Positions 28,436-55,879 of a stretch of 61,837 nucleotides of DNA are shown here, piece after piece. The translations under genes and the position numbers were made by a program. The DNA comes from a virus. The DNA lies in the IMG/VR virus record IMGVR_UViG_3300028840_003061, positions 1 to 61,837 of that record; one strand, 5' to 3'. The notes under the pieces are model-generated. The model saw only the letters and a program-made list of their open reading frames with translations. It was not told the DNA's origin and searched no databases. Each line of letters starts with the position of its first letter. Position 1 is the first letter of the stretch.

Positions 28436-28449
28436 ATTAGTTGTTAATT
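28436..28449 (-). promoter_or_regulatory. late-gene element AATTAACAACTAAT
   Basis: On the minus strand the motif AATTAACAACTAAT overlaps the stop of the gene at 28444 and stands about 35 bases before the TTG start at 28403. It matches the TTTAACAACTA consensus found ahead of other late genes. Confidence 0.45.
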
Positions 28450-28863
28450 GCCTATAACTTGTATAGTTAGTTCGTACTCGTTATTTTCCTGTAACCCAGT
28501 TATGTTTAGTATTTTTATGATTTGTCCAGTATTACCACTGTAAGTAAATGAGATAAAAGGCTGTCCTTCTGGATAAGTATTTGAATTTGTTAGATTTCTA
28601 GCAGAAAGTACTATAAATCCTCTGGCTCGATTTGTACCAATCCTGAACAATCCATTAGTAATGGGAACCCCCGTGCTGTCCACTTCTATAGAAAATGTCA
28701 GTATTTCTTGGTTTAAGTTATCAAAATCTAAATTTCCGTTAACCGTATCTACTACATCATCCATAAACTTATTAATAACATCCCCAAGCCTACCGACTAG
28801 CTCCCTATATTCCGGATCGTAATCATCACTTAAAATACGTCTTACATTATCTAGCTGTGCGAT
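28444..28863 (-). CDS. tail-associated virion protein with apparent AUC start
   Basis: The frame encodes 139 residues if read from ATC at 28863-28861. That codon overlaps the tail gene's stop as TAATC, exactly like the TAATG overlaps used elsewhere, and follows AGGGGG by five bases. The N-terminal sequence so gained (AQLDNVRRILSDDYDPEY) looks native. The first ATG is at 28764, 33 codons inside, and no GTG or TTG lies between. The segment VNGNLDFDNLNQEI is typical of small podovirus tail proteins. Function: probably a tail or tail-fibre-associated protein. Confidence 0.7.
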   Translation of the reverse strand: MAQLDNVRRILSDDYDPEYRELVGRLGDVINKFMDDVVDTVNGNLDFDNLNQEILTFSIEVDSTGVPITNGLFRIGTNRARGFIVLSARNLTNSNTYPEGQPFISFTYSGNTGQIIKILNITGLQENNEYELTIQVIGN

Positions 28864-31800
28864 TATATCCCCCTATACGCCCTGGTAGACAGTGGCCTAA
28901 CATTGAGAGAAAATCCTAATAAACTAAATGATTCTCTTGCATTGCGGTGCGTAAATTTAACAGTAATATACCTACATCTTTGCTTGTTTCGTGGTATAAG
29001 TGTCCTGTAAGGAACATCAGTACCTTCTCCTCCCCAAGCATTTTCGCTCCATACCCAACCGCCCCAGAAGCCAACACCTCGCCCGGTAAACTTTTTACTT
29101 TCAAAATCCATACTGGCGTCAGTAGCAAAGGCAAGCTCTGCAGTTACAAAGTTATTTCCATCAAAGATTGCGGTTCCTTCTGGTATTTGTTTTAATATTG
29201 AAGGATCTCCAAAATGCTGTGGAGCCCACTCTATCTCAGACACAATCCCTTTGTAGTACGTTACTGGTCCAGCAATAAAGGGCATCTGGTACTCAAAAGA
29301 AACAAGACTCTTAGAAGTATTTTTATCTAGGATAATTGCCTCAAACTCAGTTGTTTCATCTACAGTTTTATAATTAGAGTATCCGGTTCCCACAGATGAG
29401 TTTAGTTCTCCAATAAGAACATTGTACTCGTCCTTAAGCTGTTCAAATGTTACTCCAGTAGGAACTGTGTATGTCTGTAGTGGATCGTCTGCAGCTACCT
29501 TAGCAACTAAAGCAATTAGTTGGTCTTGTAACTCTGCTCCCACAGTTAGAGATAAAGAGCTTTCATAATCTGTGTCATCCAATATTACATCAGCATCTAG
29601 CTTTCTGAGAAGCCGATTAAACTTTGCTATAGTTACCCACTGTGTTTGAAGTATGACATCCCCTTGATCCACTTCCAAAACGCTACTTAATTCCACTTGT
29701 AATTCTGTAGCATCTGCTGGCTGTTCAGCAATAGAAAGATCTCCTTCGGAATCAGCAAAGTCTTTTCTTCCATCCCCTTTACGTTCTTTTCTGATAAACC
29801 CGGTATCTCCAGAAGAAAGGTATAACTTATCATCAGACTCATTTACAACTGCACTAGTTGCATTTAACCCTGTCCATCTAACCCATGAAGTATTAAAAGT
29901 ATTGTATCTATATACCTGAGTCCCGGTTGTATCGGTAGTTTCGGTAGGCATCCAAATTAAATAAGACCTATCTGTCTCGTACCCTACTCCAAAAGCTGAA
30001 GTTCTAATATTAAAATCAGAACCGCTTACATCAAATATGCGATCTTCTATTTTTCTAGAAATTACACCAACTCCGCCATCCGAAATAGTCGCAATTCCTT
30101 GAGTAGATAACATATATATCTGGTTATTTAATATTGCCGCACTATCTGGTGCAATTATGGACACAGAGTTATCTAACAGTTTTACGCCAAATGTAGAAGG
30201 AGAGCTACCCGTTATAATGTAAACTCCGTCTGTTTTCATAACAAACAAATTGTCTCTTAAGGCAACGATTCTTTCTATTGGGTCGTCCTTTCCACCAACA
30301 TCCAAGTAATTAACTAAAGGAACCGCTTCTGGTTGAGATGTTTTAGAAAAATAAACTCTATTAGGATTATCTTCATTATCTGATACTTGAGAACCAAGAA
30401 TAACTCTACCAGTGGTGTCTGACACAAAGGTTGCCTGTATTACAAAACTATTTGTTGTAGTACTTTGTATTTCATAAGATCCAACTAGATCGTTATTGTA
30501 TATATAAACGGTATCTCCTGTAGAATATCCGTGAGACGCAACCGTTACCTCAACAGTATCTGGATCTGTTGCTAGATCTACAATATTTGTAATTGATTGA
30601 GCGTTTGGCATAACTGGACTAAATTGACCAGTGATGTCCACTCCATCATCCTGTACCCCTATATAAAATTCGGAATCAGATAGATTCTTTGAACGGAGAA
30701 GGATTACGCCAGGAAGATCATCTTCTCCAGATAAATAAAAAGCACTTACTGGAGACTCGTATGTCCCATGCTGCGTTATATTAAACGTATAGCTTGTATC
30801 AACATCTGCTGCGTCTGTGGCTGGTCCAATATCTACGTTTTCAACAAATACTGTAGAAGTCGATATTACAGTGTTAAAGGAGCCTCCGCTATTGTAACCA
30901 CCAATTTCGTTCCCTGTAGTTAGAGCAACATCATCTGCTGTAGTATCTCCAGATATATCTATTCTGTGTAGAGTATATCCAGACTCCGCAGTAGGCACCG
31001 TTGCATTTGCTCCAGTTGTGTCATAATAAAATTGAACTTTATTGGCATCTAGCGCATCACTAAACAAAAACGACTCGCCGTCTGTTAGAGACGCTTTAGC
31101 TAAACAGTCAAAGTTTGTTGCCTCTCTAGTATCAATATCGCTATTTATTATACGAACCAATGATCTAGCCGTCTCATCTATTGATTGACCAGCAGATATT
31201 AAGTTAGAAAGAGTTACATCTCCGCCATCTTCGGTATTTGCCTGTTCCCCGTCCCCTTGCGTGTTGAAACTAAAAGAAAAAGATGTTCCAGTAATACCAT
31301 CTGTAGCATCATCAGAGTCTCCGTTTTTTGCATTAATTACTGTAACTACATTAGATGCTTCTGAAGCACTAAAGTCAGTTTGGTCATCTATAGAAGTTGC
31401 AAGAGCTGTTGCTACGTCTGCTGCGGTATCTCCTGGATCAAGAACCACTTTTATAGCTATTCTACCTTCGGTATCTGTGTCTGAGGGTTCAACGGTAGAT
31501 CCGGTTGTATCAAACCAGAAAAAATAACCCCTTTCATTGGATGCTGAATTTAGTAAAAAGTATGTTCCATCTAAAGATGCTGCAGCAGTTGTGGTTATTT
31601 CAGTTTCTTCTGTTGCACCGATAAAAGTATACTCTTTGCTAATACTGGAATTCCCAAGTACAAACTTAGATGTCCCAGAAACAAAGTTAGCTGCACTTAA
31701 CATACTAAACTGAAGAAAGTGTCTCGTACTAGTATTTGCGTAGAATGTTGAGTTCCTGAATATTGTTATGTCAGCAGCTTTGGGCGGTTTTTCATTAGAC

Positions 31801-33077
31801 TGGAGAATTCCTTCTCCGCTAACTGGGTTAGTGTACAACAAAGTACCTGATACTCTAAAGCTTTCTGGTATTTCATCTTTTACTGTTATTTCACCAGAAG
31901 CAATATCCGCTGCAGTAAGGTTGGCTTCGTAAACCAAGTTCATTTCATCGCCTGGCTCTAAATCGGCTAAATTATCTTCAATTGTTGTTGTGGTAACTCC
32001 AGTTCTGTATAGTTGAAATAGATAGTCTGTAGTATCCGCGTCTGATGGGATGTTAAAAGTCAAGTTAACGCTAGCAGATTTACCAGTAGAGTTAGATCCT
32101 TGAACTACAGTTGTAAAAACAAACCCAGTTAAGGCTCCAGCGCCATCGGCAACATCAGTTACGTCAGAGCCGCTATTATTAGTAATAGTTATTACATCTC
32201 CGGAAACTTCCACCGATACGTTTGCTATAGAATTTAATATAGCACTAGCAGTTCTAGCGGCCACGGTTCCAGAGGTATCTCCGGTTACAACAGCAACTTC
32301 TATCTCAATTCTATTAACGGTCTCACTAGTTGATGGTTTTGTTGAAGAACCATCTAAATTATACCATACGTAGAAATTAGACCCGTCTCCATCGGACATT
32401 AGAAAGTAATCTGCATCTAGTGCAGTTGCAAGTACTCCATTTGTATCTACAGTCGATACCTCATTTGTTTCTTTGTTACTATCAGTATTTGTTGCTATTG
32501 TTCTAGAACTGACTGCTCCAGTAATTAAATTATTGTTGGAGTCTCTATATCCCCATAATGCTCTGTATGCTGTTTTGCTTAGTGGAGGAAGAAAACCCCC
32601 ATCTTCATATACTAAAGTAGCTTTGATATCTAAGGCTGCAGGACCACCAGCATCTTTAATAAATTTGTCCTGAGTTGTAAAATTTGTCACATTATTTGAT
32701 ATTGTTCCGGAGATCTTCTTTACGCCGTCAGAAGTAGTAAAATATAAGTTACCACTAGCCTCAACGTACTTCATTCTTATACCCGACTCTACTTCGTCAT
32801 ATGTACCACTAAAAGTAGAGAATGTACCATCTTCAGCATCGCTATCGTATTGCAGACTGGAGCCTACATGTCTAATTATTCTATCTTTGTAATTTATTAA
32901 GGTTTTTATTACTTGGCTAGAAGGAGACTCATCTCCATAGTCCGAAAACCCTCTTCTAGGTCTGGCCGTATCGTTTCTATCTATTACAATATTGTTAGCA
33001 GATAGCAAAGACCCCTCGGGAAGCCCCAAAGGATTGTGGTACGTTGATAAGGTTTTTATACTTAGAAGGGATGGGAT
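28863..33077 (-). CDS. tail tubular protein B-like protein, apparent AUC start
   Basis: A very large tail protein (1404 residues), similar by position and by PEGSLLSANNIVIDRN to T7 gp12-like proteins but almost twice as long. The extra length comes from at least three related inserted modules of about 110 residues (LDADYFLMSD, LDGTYFLLNS and DGESFLFSDA mark each start). The C-terminal part has a propeller-like region (DNLFVMKTDGVYIITG). The first canonical start is TTG 33029, but the frame extends upstream to ATC 33077, five bases after AAGGAGG and 13 after the previous stop. The added residues (PSLLSIKTLSTYHN) fit the family N-terminus. Confidence 0.8.
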   Translation of the reverse strand: MPSLLSIKTLSTYHNPLGLPEGSLLSANNIVIDRNDTARPRRGFSDYGDESPSSQVIKTLINYKDRIIRHVGSSLQYDSDAEDGTFSTFSGTYDEVESGIRMKYVEASGNLYFTTSDGVKKISGTISNNVTNFTTQDKFIKDAGGPAALDIKATLVYEDGGFLPPLSKTAYRALWGYRDSNNNLITGAVSSRTIATNTDSNKETNEVSTVDTNGVLATALDADYFLMSDGDGSNFYVWYNLDGSSTKPSTSETVNRIEIEVAVVTGDTSGTVAARTASAILNSIANVSVEVSGDVITITNNSGSDVTDVADGAGALTGFVFTTVVQGSNSTGKSASVNLTFNIPSDADTTDYLFQLYRTGVTTTTIEDNLADLEPGDEMNLVYEANLTAADIASGEITVKDEIPESFRVSGTLLYTNPVSGEGILQSNEKPPKAADITIFRNSTFYANTSTRHFLQFSMLSAANFVSGTSKFVLGNSSISKEYTFIGATEETEITTTAAASLDGTYFLLNSASNERGYFFWFDTTGSTVEPSDTDTEGRIAIKVVLDPGDTAADVATALATSIDDQTDFSASEASNVVTVINAKNGDSDDATDGITGTSFSFSFNTQGDGEQANTEDGGDVTLSNLISAGQSIDETARSLVRIINSDIDTREATNFDCLAKASLTDGESFLFSDALDANKVQFYYDTTGANATVPTAESGYTLHRIDISGDTTADDVALTTGNEIGGYNSGGSFNTVISTSTVFVENVDIGPATDAADVDTSYTFNITQHGTYESPVSAFYLSGEDDLPGVILLRSKNLSDSEFYIGVQDDGVDITGQFSPVMPNAQSITNIVDLATDPDTVEVTVASHGYSTGDTVYIYNNDLVGSYEIQSTTTNSFVIQATFVSDTTGRVILGSQVSDNEDNPNRVYFSKTSQPEAVPLVNYLDVGGKDDPIERIVALRDNLFVMKTDGVYIITGSSPSTFGVKLLDNSVSIIAPDSAAILNNQIYMLSTQGIATISDGGVGVISRKIEDRIFDVSGSDFNIRTSAFGVGYETDRSYLIWMPTETTDTTGTQVYRYNTFNTSWVRWTGLNATSAVVNESDDKLYLSSGDTGFIRKERKGDGRKDFADSEGDLSIAEQPADATELQVELSSVLEVDQGDVILQTQWVTIAKFNRLLRKLDADVILDDTDYESSLSLTVGAELQDQLIALVAKVAADDPLQTYTVPTGVTFEQLKDEYNVLIGELNSSVGTGYSNYKTVDETTEFEAIILDKNTSKSLVSFEYQMPFIAGPVTYYKGIVSEIEWAPQHFGDPSILKQIPEGTAIFDGNNFVTAELAFATDASMDFESKKFTGRGVGFWGGWVWSENAWGGEGTDVPYRTLIPRNKQRCRYITVKFTHRNARESFSLLGFSLNVRPLSTRAYRGI

Positions 33078-33089
33078 GGTATCCTCCTT

Positions 33090-34052
33090 TTAGTAGCCGC
33101 GTCTGCGTCTTCTAGATCGAACACTTTGAGATAGAGTGCTGTGTGTGTTTTTTACCTTTAGTGTAGACCCTTCTGCACGATTATCAATTAGAGTCATAGA
33201 ATTATATTCCATTCTCTCTAATTCTCTTTGAGCATTGTTCATACCTTCGGTATCACCAAGCGCCTCTAGCATCTTGACCGCAGCTCTTTGTGCTAATATT
33301 GGATGAAGCTCTGTAGGAAGTTGCGGTACGATTGATTCTTCTGCTTGAGTTATGATATCTCCAGCCACCAAACTAGAGTCGATGTCCTCTATAGTAGTAA
33401 AAGTTACGGTTTGTGCATTTGCATCAACAGATAAAATAGTACGATCAAATGTTATTATATTATTCGGAGACTTTCCTTGAACTATATCAAAAAGAGTTAT
33501 TGTTGAAAAATGCTCCGGAAAGGTAGACATGGTAATGGTAGTTTCGCCTGGGACAGTAGCAGTATCTATATCCGTTATAACACCACCACGATCATTTTCA
33601 ACTAGTTCGCTCGGTCTCAAGTAATAACTAAACCTCAATGATCCGCTCTGTGCTGTTTCATTTATTAAAACAACACTATCTCCTTTGAGATAAAATGCAT
33701 ATACTCGGTTAGTACTGTAATGGCCTTTGTATTGAGGTACATCTTCTATTGTTACTCTAGTCATCTCATATACTGCTCCATTTGAGTCAACATATGAAAT
33801 CTCCCGTATCTTATTGCCAATAGCTCTGTATGGTATTTTATAGCTAGTCTTGTTGGATACTAAAGCAACGTCCTCACTAACAACATAAAACTCTTCGTGT
33901 GCCTTTAGGACATTTGGTACAACGTGTATTCCGAATTCTTCGTTTAATATGTCCTGAACATCGTCTGATGTAAATGTTGATTGGTTCTCAGGAATCATAG
34001 CCCGACGAAGAGCCGTATTAACTAATCTGTCTGTTGTTAATACTTTGGCCAT
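33090..34052 (-). CDS. tail tubular protein A-like (gp11-like) protein
   Basis: A 320-residue protein. The N-terminus TTDRLVNTALRRAMIP and the middle segment VSNKTSYKIPYRAIGNKIREISYV, followed by a long run ending LRFSYYLRP, match podovirus tail tube A or head-tail connector proteins. The C-terminal part has an Arg-rich tail (SRRRRRGY). It lies directly upstream of the tail B gene with a 12-base gap holding the strong ribosome binding site. Start ATG behind AAGGAGAG. Confidence 0.75.
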   Translation of the reverse strand: MAKVLTTDRLVNTALRRAMIPENQSTFTSDDVQDILNEEFGIHVVPNVLKAHEEFYVVSEDVALVSNKTSYKIPYRAIGNKIREISYVDSNGAVYEMTRVTIEDVPQYKGHYSTNRVYAFYLKGDSVVLINETAQSGSLRFSYYLRPSELVENDRGGVITDIDTATVPGETTITMSTFPEHFSTITLFDIVQGKSPNNIITFDRTILSVDANAQTVTFTTIEDIDSSLVAGDIITQAEESIVPQLPTELHPILAQRAAVKMLEALGDTEGMNNAQRELERMEYNSMTLIDNRAEGSTLKVKNTHSTLSQSVRSRRRRRGY

Positions 34053-43982: not shown

Positions 43983-44447
43983 CTATTGTTGTTTGGCTTT
44001 AGCCGAATATGTTATAGTTCCATCACCTTTTCCACTATCAGAGAAATACTGAATAACACCAAGGGAGCTTATTTGAAATGCCATACCTGCATCTCCAACG
44101 CTTTCTACTTGCAATGTCCAGTTTGTTCCATCATAATGTCCAGACATGGTGCCTCTTTCTACGTATGTAGAAACATTTACTCTAGTAACAACATAATCTA
44201 CTTCAAAGGATCGTACAGTAGCACTTGAAAACTTCAAGGCACTTGAGCCAGATCCAACAGTTTGAGCTGTAGATTGATTATCTAGAATTACTCCGTTTGT
44301 ATTTGCTATATCATCTGGACCAAAAAGGGTACCTACTACGTCATTAATCGCTTCTGCCCAATCTGTGGCCTCTTCGCCCCAACCTGCGTTGGTTCCTTGA
44401 ACTGGATATAGATACGTCTCTGATCCCACCGTTAATGACTTAGAAAT
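43983..44447 (-). CDS. virion protein with apparent AUU start
   Basis: Read from ATT at 44447-44445, this frame encodes 154 residues beginning SKSLTVGSETYLYPVQG, a typical phage structural N-terminus followed by GWGEEATDWAEAIND. The codon lies five bases after AAGGAGAGAT-AC. The first canonical codon is a GTG at 44429, six codons inside and without a ribosome binding site. The body is beta-rich (FEVDYVVTRVNVSTYVERG). It is the first gene after the capsid gene, behind its own terminator and late element, and may be a head decoration or fibre-attachment protein. Confidence 0.72.
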   Translation of the reverse strand: MSKSLTVGSETYLYPVQGTNAGWGEEATDWAEAINDVVGTLFGPDDIANTNGVILDNQSTAQTVGSGSSALKFSSATVRSFEVDYVVTRVNVSTYVERGTMSGHYDGTNWTLQVESVGDAGMAFQISSLGVIQYFSDSGKGDGTITYSAKAKQQ

Positions 44448-44480
44448 GGTATCTCTCCTTGTATAGGTTTTTTGAATACA

Positions 44481-44495
44481 ATATAGTTGTTAAAC
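44481..44495 (-). promoter_or_regulatory. late-gene element GTTTAACAACTATAT
   Basis: Minus-strand GTTTAACAACTATAT lies between the capsid terminator (44551..44522) and the ribosome binding site of the AUU-start gene. A terminator followed by this element and a new gene is the best contextual support for it being a late promoter. Confidence 0.55.
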
Positions 44496-44521: not shown

Positions 44522-44551
44522 AAAAAAGGGGATAACAAAAGCTATCCCCTT
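44522..44551 (-). terminator. strong terminator after the major capsid gene
   Basis: On the minus strand AAGGGGATAGC, a TTTT loop and GTTATCCCCTT make an 11-bp stem (one G-U), followed by TTTTTT. It begins 24 bases after the capsid stop. Confidence 0.95.
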
Positions 44552-45633: not shown

Positions 45634-45808
45634 CGAAATCACTAGGTTTTTTAATTTACCTTAGTGATCTTTTGTTACCGTAAAGGCTTTTTATCCTCTA
45701 CTTCTTATAGTTTCCTATAAGTCCAGCATACATTTTCACCCTCTATTTGAGGGGTTCCACACTCTTGGAGAAATTATATTCTACTTTTGTAGGTTCATTC
45801 TCTATGCG

Positions 45809-46438
45809 TTACGGAGTTACAGAGTTTTTACTCTCTGTAGTTTCCTCGGTATTAGCATCGTCGATGTATTTAAAGATATGATTTTTGTGTCGGGGTCTTT
45901 TACCTTTTATAACTGCACAAATTAAAGAGGGGTTAAACCCAAGCTCTTTTCCTTGAGTTGGATAATCTAAATAAAAGACATTTCCGGTCTTTTCGTTAGT
46001 ACACTCAACTTTTTTTGCTCCTAGTGTTCGAGATATTTTAATACGTTGTTCTTTAGAAATATGCCTTCCGTGTAGTTTTGGAATAACAGCACCCGTCTTG
46101 GTTTTACTGATTTTTTGACGTATTTCCTCTGACATATTAACGATACCTCCGCCGCCTTCCGTAAGATTGTAACCAAGTCCGAGATACGTATTGTATTTTT
46201 TTATGTACATACGTTCTTTGTTGAATAAATCTTCTTCTGATACAGCAGTATCTATCTCAATAATAGTAAAATTATCCTTACCGTACTTATGGATTGCTTT
46301 TTGTATAGCAGAGCGTTCTTTGTTAGCTCTATTTATATGACCATTAAAACGCTCTTCCAACGTCTTAGTTGTAACCCCAATATATTTTTTATTATTGATG
46401 TTATTTGTTATCATATATATTAAACCATACTTTTCCAT
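45809..46438 (-). CDS. GIY-YIG homing endonuclease (intron-encoded)
   Basis: A 209-residue enzyme read from ATG 46438. The GLIYMI...KKYIGVT pair (residues 5-23) is the GIY-YIG motif, with the catalytic Arg in LEERFNGHI and Glu in the KERMYIKKYN segment. Two NUMOD3-like units (MSEEIRQKISKTKTG and ISKEQRIKISRTLGA) and a C-terminal DNA-binding region follow. An in-frame GTG at 46486 falls inside the conserved intron core and is unlikely to be the start. It should cut intron-less capsid alleles and spread the intron. Confidence 0.9.
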   Translation of the reverse strand: MEKYGLIYMITNNINNKKYIGVTTKTLEERFNGHINRANKERSAIQKAIHKYGKDNFTIIEIDTAVSEEDLFNKERMYIKKYNTYLGLGYNLTEGGGGIVNMSEEIRQKISKTKTGAVIPKLHGRHISKEQRIKISRTLGAKKVECTNEKTGNVFYLDYPTQGKELGFNPSLICAVIKGKRPRHKNHIFKYIDDANTEETTESKNSVTP

Positions 46439-46444
46439 ATTATC

Positions 46445-46473
46445 ATTATACCTTAAAATATTTACAAAATCAA
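46445..46473 (-). promoter_or_regulatory. possible internal promoter for the homing endonuclease
   Basis: On the minus strand TTGATT (46473-46468), a 17-base spacer and TATAAT (46450-46445) stand just ahead of ATG 46438. Transcription would begin at or next to the ATG, implying a nearly leaderless message. Confidence 0.5.
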
Positions 46474-46548
46474 CATTAGCCTTCACCGATTTTGCGGAAT
46501 TTTCTTATACCCTGTTACCAGGATATCATGGCATAACTTTTAGTGTCT

Positions 46549-55110: not shown

Positions 55111-55410
55111 TTAAAAGTTTATTTTTATAACCACTAATACTTCATTTCCTGATACGTTTACAGTACTCACTGAGCCATACATGGAGAAATCGTACTGTAA
55201 CCTTCCGCTAGATATAATATCGACTAAACTATAAGTATAAGCAGCATATTCTTTGTTAATACCAGTAATTCTTAGTATTTTCTCTGCTTTTTTTTCTGCC
55301 TTATCCGCAATCTTAGTCTTAGATAGGCCCTCATATAGTTTATCAAGTGCTTCATCAGCAAAAGCTATATTAGTTGTTAATAGAAGGGCAATGGGGAGTA
55401 AATACCTCAT
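55111..55410 (-). CDS. exported small protein
   Basis: A 99-residue protein read from ATG 55410, overlapping the upstream stop by ATGA; an earlier in-frame start at 55452 lies inside the neighbouring gene. Residues 1-18 (RYLLPIALLLTTNIAFA) form a clear signal peptide with cleavage before DEALDK. The mature part is helical, then beta (STVNVSGNEVLVVIKI). A periplasmic role is likely; no family is recognised. Confidence 0.68.
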   Translation of the reverse strand: MRYLLPIALLLTTNIAFADEALDKLYEGLSKTKIADKAEKKAEKILRITGINKEYAAYTYSLVDIISSGRLQYDFSMYGSVSTVNVSGNEVLVVIKINF

Positions 55411-55720: not shown

Positions 55721-55879
55721 ATGAATAGATTAACTGTAAACGCATTATTGACAATAGCTGCTATTTTCTCAGCAGACCTACTTTTCTTTTTTATGGGGCT
55801 ATCAGTTCCCGGACCGCTTTTTCAATTACTAATGTTTGTTGGGCTGGTCAGTGTATTACAATTTATGGAGCTGTCATGA
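55721..55879 (+). CDS. small membrane protein
   Basis: A 52-residue protein read from ATG 55721 behind TTGGAGGAA; the frame is open further upstream without a ribosome binding site. Two hydrophobic segments are separated by a short GLSVPGP turn. An AGTGTATTAT site (55697-55706) lies in its leader. It overlaps the lipoprotein gene by ATGA. Unknown role. Confidence 0.6.
   Translation: MNRLTVNALLTIAAIFSADLLFFFMGLSVPGPLFQLLMFVGLVSVLQFMELS

Follow-up and report, generated by a model that had tools for sequence, protein, structure and literature searches.

Results

The late gene block and genes A, B, and C

The window, that is, the whole stretch of DNA analyzed here, comprises the 61,837 bases of an IMG/VR virus record, a metagenome contig from an uncultured bacterial virus. 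The closest cultured phage is a Silvanigrella phage, at 28–31% identity. As for the host, six MAG contigs pointed to mixed phyla. A late block on the minus strand contains terminase, P22/SU10-like portal, capsid, and tail genes. Among the 85 window genes in a list compiled by hand, the start codons are ATG (64 genes), GTG (13), TTG (5), ATC (2), and ATT (1). The initial annotation had claimed that three virion genes start with AUU or AUC; it named the gene after the capsid gene, referred to here as gene A, and left the other two unnamed, which we take to be genes B and C.

Gene A (43983–44447, minus strand) encodes a protein of 154 aa. Upon re-reading, the minus strand at 44460–44445 is AAGGAGAGATACC ATT, followed by the N terminus SKSLTVGSETY as previously described, and the position of the ATT (44445–44447) is fixed by the aligned starts of relatives, which are ATG or GTG in 16 of 18 cases and ATC in two. 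The Shine–Dalgarno sequence (SD), AAGGAG (44455–44460, minus strand), is separated from the ATT by seven bases, corresponding to an aligned spacing of 6. No ATG, GTG, or TTG occurs among the 14 codons that separate the ATT from the preceding stop, and the single such codon among the next 59 is a GTG at +6 (44429). This GTG, which had been said to lack a ribosome-binding site, indeed has an anti-SD duplex energy of just −0.8 kcal/mol, compared with −8.5 kcal/mol at the ATT.

Gene B (28863–33077, minus strand; 1404 aa) belongs to PHROG 511, an internal virion protein family, and starts 13 nt past the stop of the upstream gene, with AAAAGGAGGATACC ATC at 33077 (start codon 33075–33077; SD AAAGGAGG at 33083–33090, aligned spacing 5; all minus strand). 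Gene C (28444–28863, minus strand; 139 aa) lies in the late block and matched no known family. It starts with TAGGGGGATATA ATC (start codon 28861–28863; SD TAGGGGG at 28869–28875, aligned spacing 4; all minus strand), the A of which is shared with the TAA stop of gene B, so that the overlap reads TAATC in the window and TAATG in relatives. Alternative in-frame starts are TTG at +16 (SD energy 0.5) and TTG at +23 (−6.4) for gene B, and ATG at +33 (−4.4) for gene C. Use of an internal start in A, B, or C would in each case remove N-terminal residues that are conserved in relatives.

Gene A starts 127 nt past the capsid stop. Between the two genes lies a stem-loop (44526–44551, minus strand), followed by a T-run on the minus strand as judged by eye (the scan itself listed the stem-loop on the plus strand), and the motif TTTAACAACT (44485–44494, minus strand) stands upstream of gene A. 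Given this stem-loop and motif, a possible late promoter element, transcription of gene A may be independent of the capsid gene. The motif, WTTAACAACT, occurs seven times in the window, always on the minus strand (starts at 55381, 52515, 50361, 46880, 44494, 34349, and 28448), compared with 0.63 expected copies; six of the seven sit shortly before late genes. Most relatives carry a similar site upstream of gene A, and the related phage G002 has such sites too. The motif is a possible late promoter or processing element.

The capsid gene is itself split after ...LEHG by an insert of 915 nt (45634–46548, minus strand) that carries a GIY-YIG homing endonuclease gene, whereas the capsid gene of the related phage G001 is uninterrupted. 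The exon ends in T and the insert in G, boundaries consistent with a group I intron, but the insert gave no match in Rfam. About 70 nt of it (approximately 45661–45784, minus strand) are 81–97% identical to Staphylococcus, Arcanobacterium, Alicyclobacillus, and Clostridioides phages, to which the remainder of the 24 kb queried showed no match.

The structure of the gene A product, predicted using 14 sequences, is a β-sandwich with a mean pLDDT of 86.3, lower over the first 40 residues, and resembles anchor domains of fibers and tailspikes. In the PDB, it is matched best by a podovirus tailspike (6e1r, 8.1e-5), a tail fiber (7xy1, 2.4e-4), and T4 gp9 (1qex, 5.5e-4), all with TM-scores below 0.5, and the viral models matched include tail-fiber proteins. 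Gene A adjoins a gene of 1274 aa with a weak tail-fiber-assembly match. Together, the predicted fold and this neighbor suggest that the gene A product is a fiber anchor or connector, a low-copy part. The description of all three as virion genes thus fits A, by its fold, and B, by its PHROG family, while C is placed by its position in the late block only.

Start codons in related phages

A capsid scan gave 11 loci, in 10 of which gene A comes next; the eleventh is a fragment that stops short of that point. Scanning by family yielded 18 loci for gene A, 23 for gene B, and four for gene C. A first scan using gene B as the sole query had found nothing. The start codons of gene A are ATG in 15 loci, GTG in one (L155), and ATC in two (L139 and L141). 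Six of the 15 ATG loci (L148–L153) have an identical start context, the ATG of L145 is one codon past the aligned site, and in L156 the match begins at query residue 5, with an ATG four codons ahead of the match. In L139 and L141, there is no in-frame ATG, GTG, or TTG from the upstream stop to codon +59. For gene B, inspection by eye showed ATG, GTG, or TTG in all 23 loci, either where the alignment places the start or no more than a few codons away; the exactly aligned codon is GTG in G002 and ATG in G006, and GTG is also found in L116 and L120. Gene C starts with ATG in all four loci, which represent two distinct start contexts. The survey of related phages that the initial annotation had proposed as a check is thereby in hand, and it returns ATC for gene A in two of 18 loci and standard starts for gene B (23/23) and gene C (4/4).

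An automatic survey covered 505 ORFs with homology-inferred starts and retained cases that had a strong SD, the agreement of at least six homologues, and no standard start closer than +6. Four AUU/AUC starts passed this filter, all in the group of phages to which the window belongs: gene A of the window (25 of 29 votes), gene C of the window (6 of 11), and gene A of L031 (23 of 28) and L167 (25 of 31), the contigs on which L139 and L141, respectively, lie. Gene B was missed by this survey, and its start was placed from alignments. Other candidates were rejected: L035:5881 had three votes and a weak SD (−3.0), L090:519 had a single homologue, L059:6520 showed no coding support, and the candidate at window position 55729 is an ORF opening beside the gene at 55721. 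A simple start scorer run on eight records yielded many further AUH and CUG candidates, which by eye were mostly antisense or weak.

Two observations concern starts elsewhere in these phages. The near-identical contigs L116 and L120 differ at position 229, where a protein that is 99.4% identical between them starts with ATA in one and ATG in the other, either because the start codon changed recently or because one sequence is in error. In G002, a 370-aa DUF2201 (metallopeptidase/VWA-like) gene (L184:17428, plus strand) has AAAAAGGAGTTAGTC ATC as a candidate start. The alternative is a TTG seven codons further in, and homologues did not decide between the two.

Shine–Dalgarno strength and spacing

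It had been argued that three such starts behind strong ribosome-binding sites could not easily be chance. A strong SD followed by a non-standard codon does not by itself beat chance: in a scan of 118 loci (995 kb) for strong SDs lacking a standard start, TTT followed 13 times and ATT eight times, and the ATT cases were mostly antisense by eye. The argument holds on other grounds, since homology aligns all three window positions with the ATG or GTG starts of relatives, and this comparison confirms the AUU and AUC codons of A, B, and C as genuine start positions. Likewise, the distance from the ribosome-binding site, which had been given as the same in all three genes, is similar rather than identical (6, 5, and 4 nt when aligned), and an aligned spacing of 4–6 is seen at all five AUU/AUC sites, namely A, B, and C of the window and gene A of L139 and L141.

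Duplex energies at the starts of genes B and C are −11.6 and −9.3, respectively. With energies that rest on an assumed anti-SD, which may not be that of the host, SDs are stronger at the five AUU/AUC sites (−8.2 to −12.0) than at 16 homologous standard sites (−3.1 to −8.8; p = 0.0017, one-sided Mann–Whitney) and stronger at window A, B, and C than in the 24 other late genes in the hand list, all of which start with ATG (mean −6.6; p = 0.011), these p values overstating the evidence because the sites are related by descent. The comparison across homologous sites left out L149–L153 (same context as L148) and L156 for gene A, 19 of the 23 gene B rows (duplicates, or starts not aligned to the codon), and L159 and L160 (same context as L158) for gene C. 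Stronger SDs have been described as compensation for GUG and UUG starts in prokaryotes (PMC5622118). Since those 24 other late genes start with ATG, late genes as a class are not set apart by AUU/AUC.

Translation factors, tRNAs, and RNA structure

Searches for an IF3 gene (PF00707 and PF05198) were negative in all six phage records, with hits in 10 of 14 genomes used as a positive control; the factor on which infC-style autoregulation depends is thus encoded neither by these genes nor elsewhere in the records. ARAGORN found no tRNA genes in the window or in any of 12 pieces taken from related contigs, and hence no phage tRNA that could read AUU or AUC as a start. Rfam gave no family match, either for the window or for the surroundings of the capsid insert, and RNA structure was unremarkable at all six start sites inspected. 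Given the absence of IF3 and tRNA genes from these records and the ordinary local RNA structure, host factors would suffice, and the host's own machinery is the simplest agent.

Phylogeny and persistence of the gene A start codon

Trees built for the capsid and for gene A unite the window with G001 (L031/L139), G002, and G012 (L167/L141) in one supported group, in which the window and G001 are sisters (99/98) and the placement of G002 and G012 is not resolved. Gene A starts with ATG in G002 and with AUU or AUC in the other three, so the trees allow both one origin, with ATG kept or regained in G002, and two origins. Because G002 uses ATG, the weak start is not required. Differences at fourfold sites among the four phages amount to 0.54–0.76 in gene A, which is near saturation, and 0.41–0.50 in the capsid gene; the weak start has therefore lasted, switching between AUU and AUC. 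A return to AUG needs a single base, and three of the four phages keep a third base other than G. In a group this small, with sites that are not independent, such persistence is weak evidence in favor of a benefit or at least no cost, and does not separate the two. For genes B and C, AUU/AUC starts were seen only in the window, and neither L139 nor L141 lies on a contig that extends to these genes.

Discussion

Genes A, B, and C combine a homologous start position, a strong SD, and no usable standard start nearby, and their AUU and AUC codons appear to reflect genuine weak initiation that has been retained for a long time, not an error of sequencing. Such starts belong to a known phenomenon, of which the present case, judged by sequence comparison, is unusually well supported. 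AUU and AUC starts are known from infC (AUU in Escherichia coli, AUC in Streptomyces), where they are discriminated against by IF3 (PMC5472188), and E. coli pcnB likewise has AUU. Unlike the phage genes, infC and pcnB are host regulatory genes, one per pathway, and infC is autoregulated by its own product. Closer in some respects are Staphylococcus aureus cvfC1 (AUU) and ccpN (AUA), in which the weak start is conserved among relatives and accompanied by an extended SD, with about 10% of the AUG yield in poor medium (PMC13009471); these are host genes measured by ribosome profiling and reporters, whereas the phage starts come from sequence alone. Streptomyces sigR has a non-canonical start that is repressed by IF3 and keeps the protein below the level of its partner (PMC5472188), but the codon is GTC, the product is a regulatory protein, and the effect was shown experimentally.

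Among phages, terS of Streptococcus thermophilus phage TP-J34 (AAGGAGGTggatgtATT) is likewise a morphogenesis gene with AUU behind a strong SD, confirmed by resequencing (PMC3952083). It is one predicted gene, and the sections of that report available to us contain no conservation or compensation analysis. In Campylobacter phage vB_CcoM-IBB_35, ATT and ATC account for 4.2% and 3.1% of predicted starts (PMC3322345); these are annotation counts, for which the available sections give no homology support. In a mainly open-access literature, we came across no phage described as having several late genes with homology-supported AUU/AUC starts.

We propose, with a probability of about 0.5, that strong SDs offset weak AUU/AUC starts in such a way that low-copy virion parts are made at a low, fixed yield. 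Genes A, B, and C would be translated from AUU, AUC, and AUC by the ordinary initiator tRNA of the host, with the third base mispaired. IF3 normally rejects such mispairing, which would make initiation inefficient, and a stronger-than-usual SD at an aligned spacing of 4–6 nt would recruit the 30S subunit and partly restore the rate. The net result would be a fixed low yield of proteins of which each virion probably needs few copies, made alongside the plentiful capsid protein. A low-copy role is plausible for both A, with its resemblance to fiber and tailspike anchors, and B, as a member of an internal virion protein family. From the start positions and codons, the SD strengths, and the persistence of the weak start in gene A, we infer the low yield, the role of IF3, and selection that keeps the yield low.

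The main rival is near-neutral drift, in which the third base matters little in this host behind a strong SD, and any low yield brings no benefit. Both alternatives offered by the initial annotation, deliberate throttling and tolerance of such starts, thus stand, tolerance being a real possibility that we consider the less probable of the two. Weak starts do come and go in this family, as illustrated by GTG in gene B of G002, L116, and L120; the ATG in gene A of G002, the candidate ATC start in an unrelated gene of the same phage, and the ATA/ATG difference between L116 and L120 point the same way. Drift fits less well with the restriction of well-supported AUU/AUC starts to the window group among 505 ORFs, or with a non-G third base at the gene A start in three of four phages despite near-saturated silent sites.

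It is unlikely that these codons serve conditional control, in which IF3 or ribosome levels shift during infection and switch AUU/AUC genes relative to AUG genes, in timing as well as in level. IF3 represses AUU-type starts and sets infC expression by feedback (PMC5472188), excess IF3 blocks M13 propagation in E. coli, there through reinitiation (PMC2268962), and AUU/AUC starts are common to three genes here; but the phage records carry no IF3 gene, and the remaining late genes use ATG. Reinitiation, in which ribosomes finishing the upstream gene restart on a weak codon whose identity matters little, may contribute at B and C, which directly follow or overlap upstream genes, the B/C overlap being kept as TAATG in relatives. 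Gene A, 127 nt beyond the capsid stop and past a stem-loop, is not explained in this way, which makes reinitiation an improbable general account. An artefact, whether a sequence error in a metagenome contig whose near-identical partner (L032) does not cover A, B, and C or true starts at the standard codons inside these genes, is hardly credible, given that, at the start of gene A, two contigs from other metagenomes likewise have ATC and offer no standard start within reach, and that internal starts would delete conserved N-terminal residues.

Returning to throttling by weak starts behind strong SDs, a doubtful extension is that start-codon identity forms a shared control layer over several virion genes, tied to the ratio of IF3 to ribosomes. 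If so, the output of low-copy parts would follow the state of the host translation machinery during assembly. More immediately, gene callers limited to ATG, GTG, and TTG would truncate or miss genes such as A in L139 and L141. Homology indicates that AUU/AUC starts can endure in phages for long periods, with apparent SD compensation, and the natural matched pairs of AUU/AUC and AUG/GUG at one site make it possible to test directly what a weak start contributes to virion assembly.
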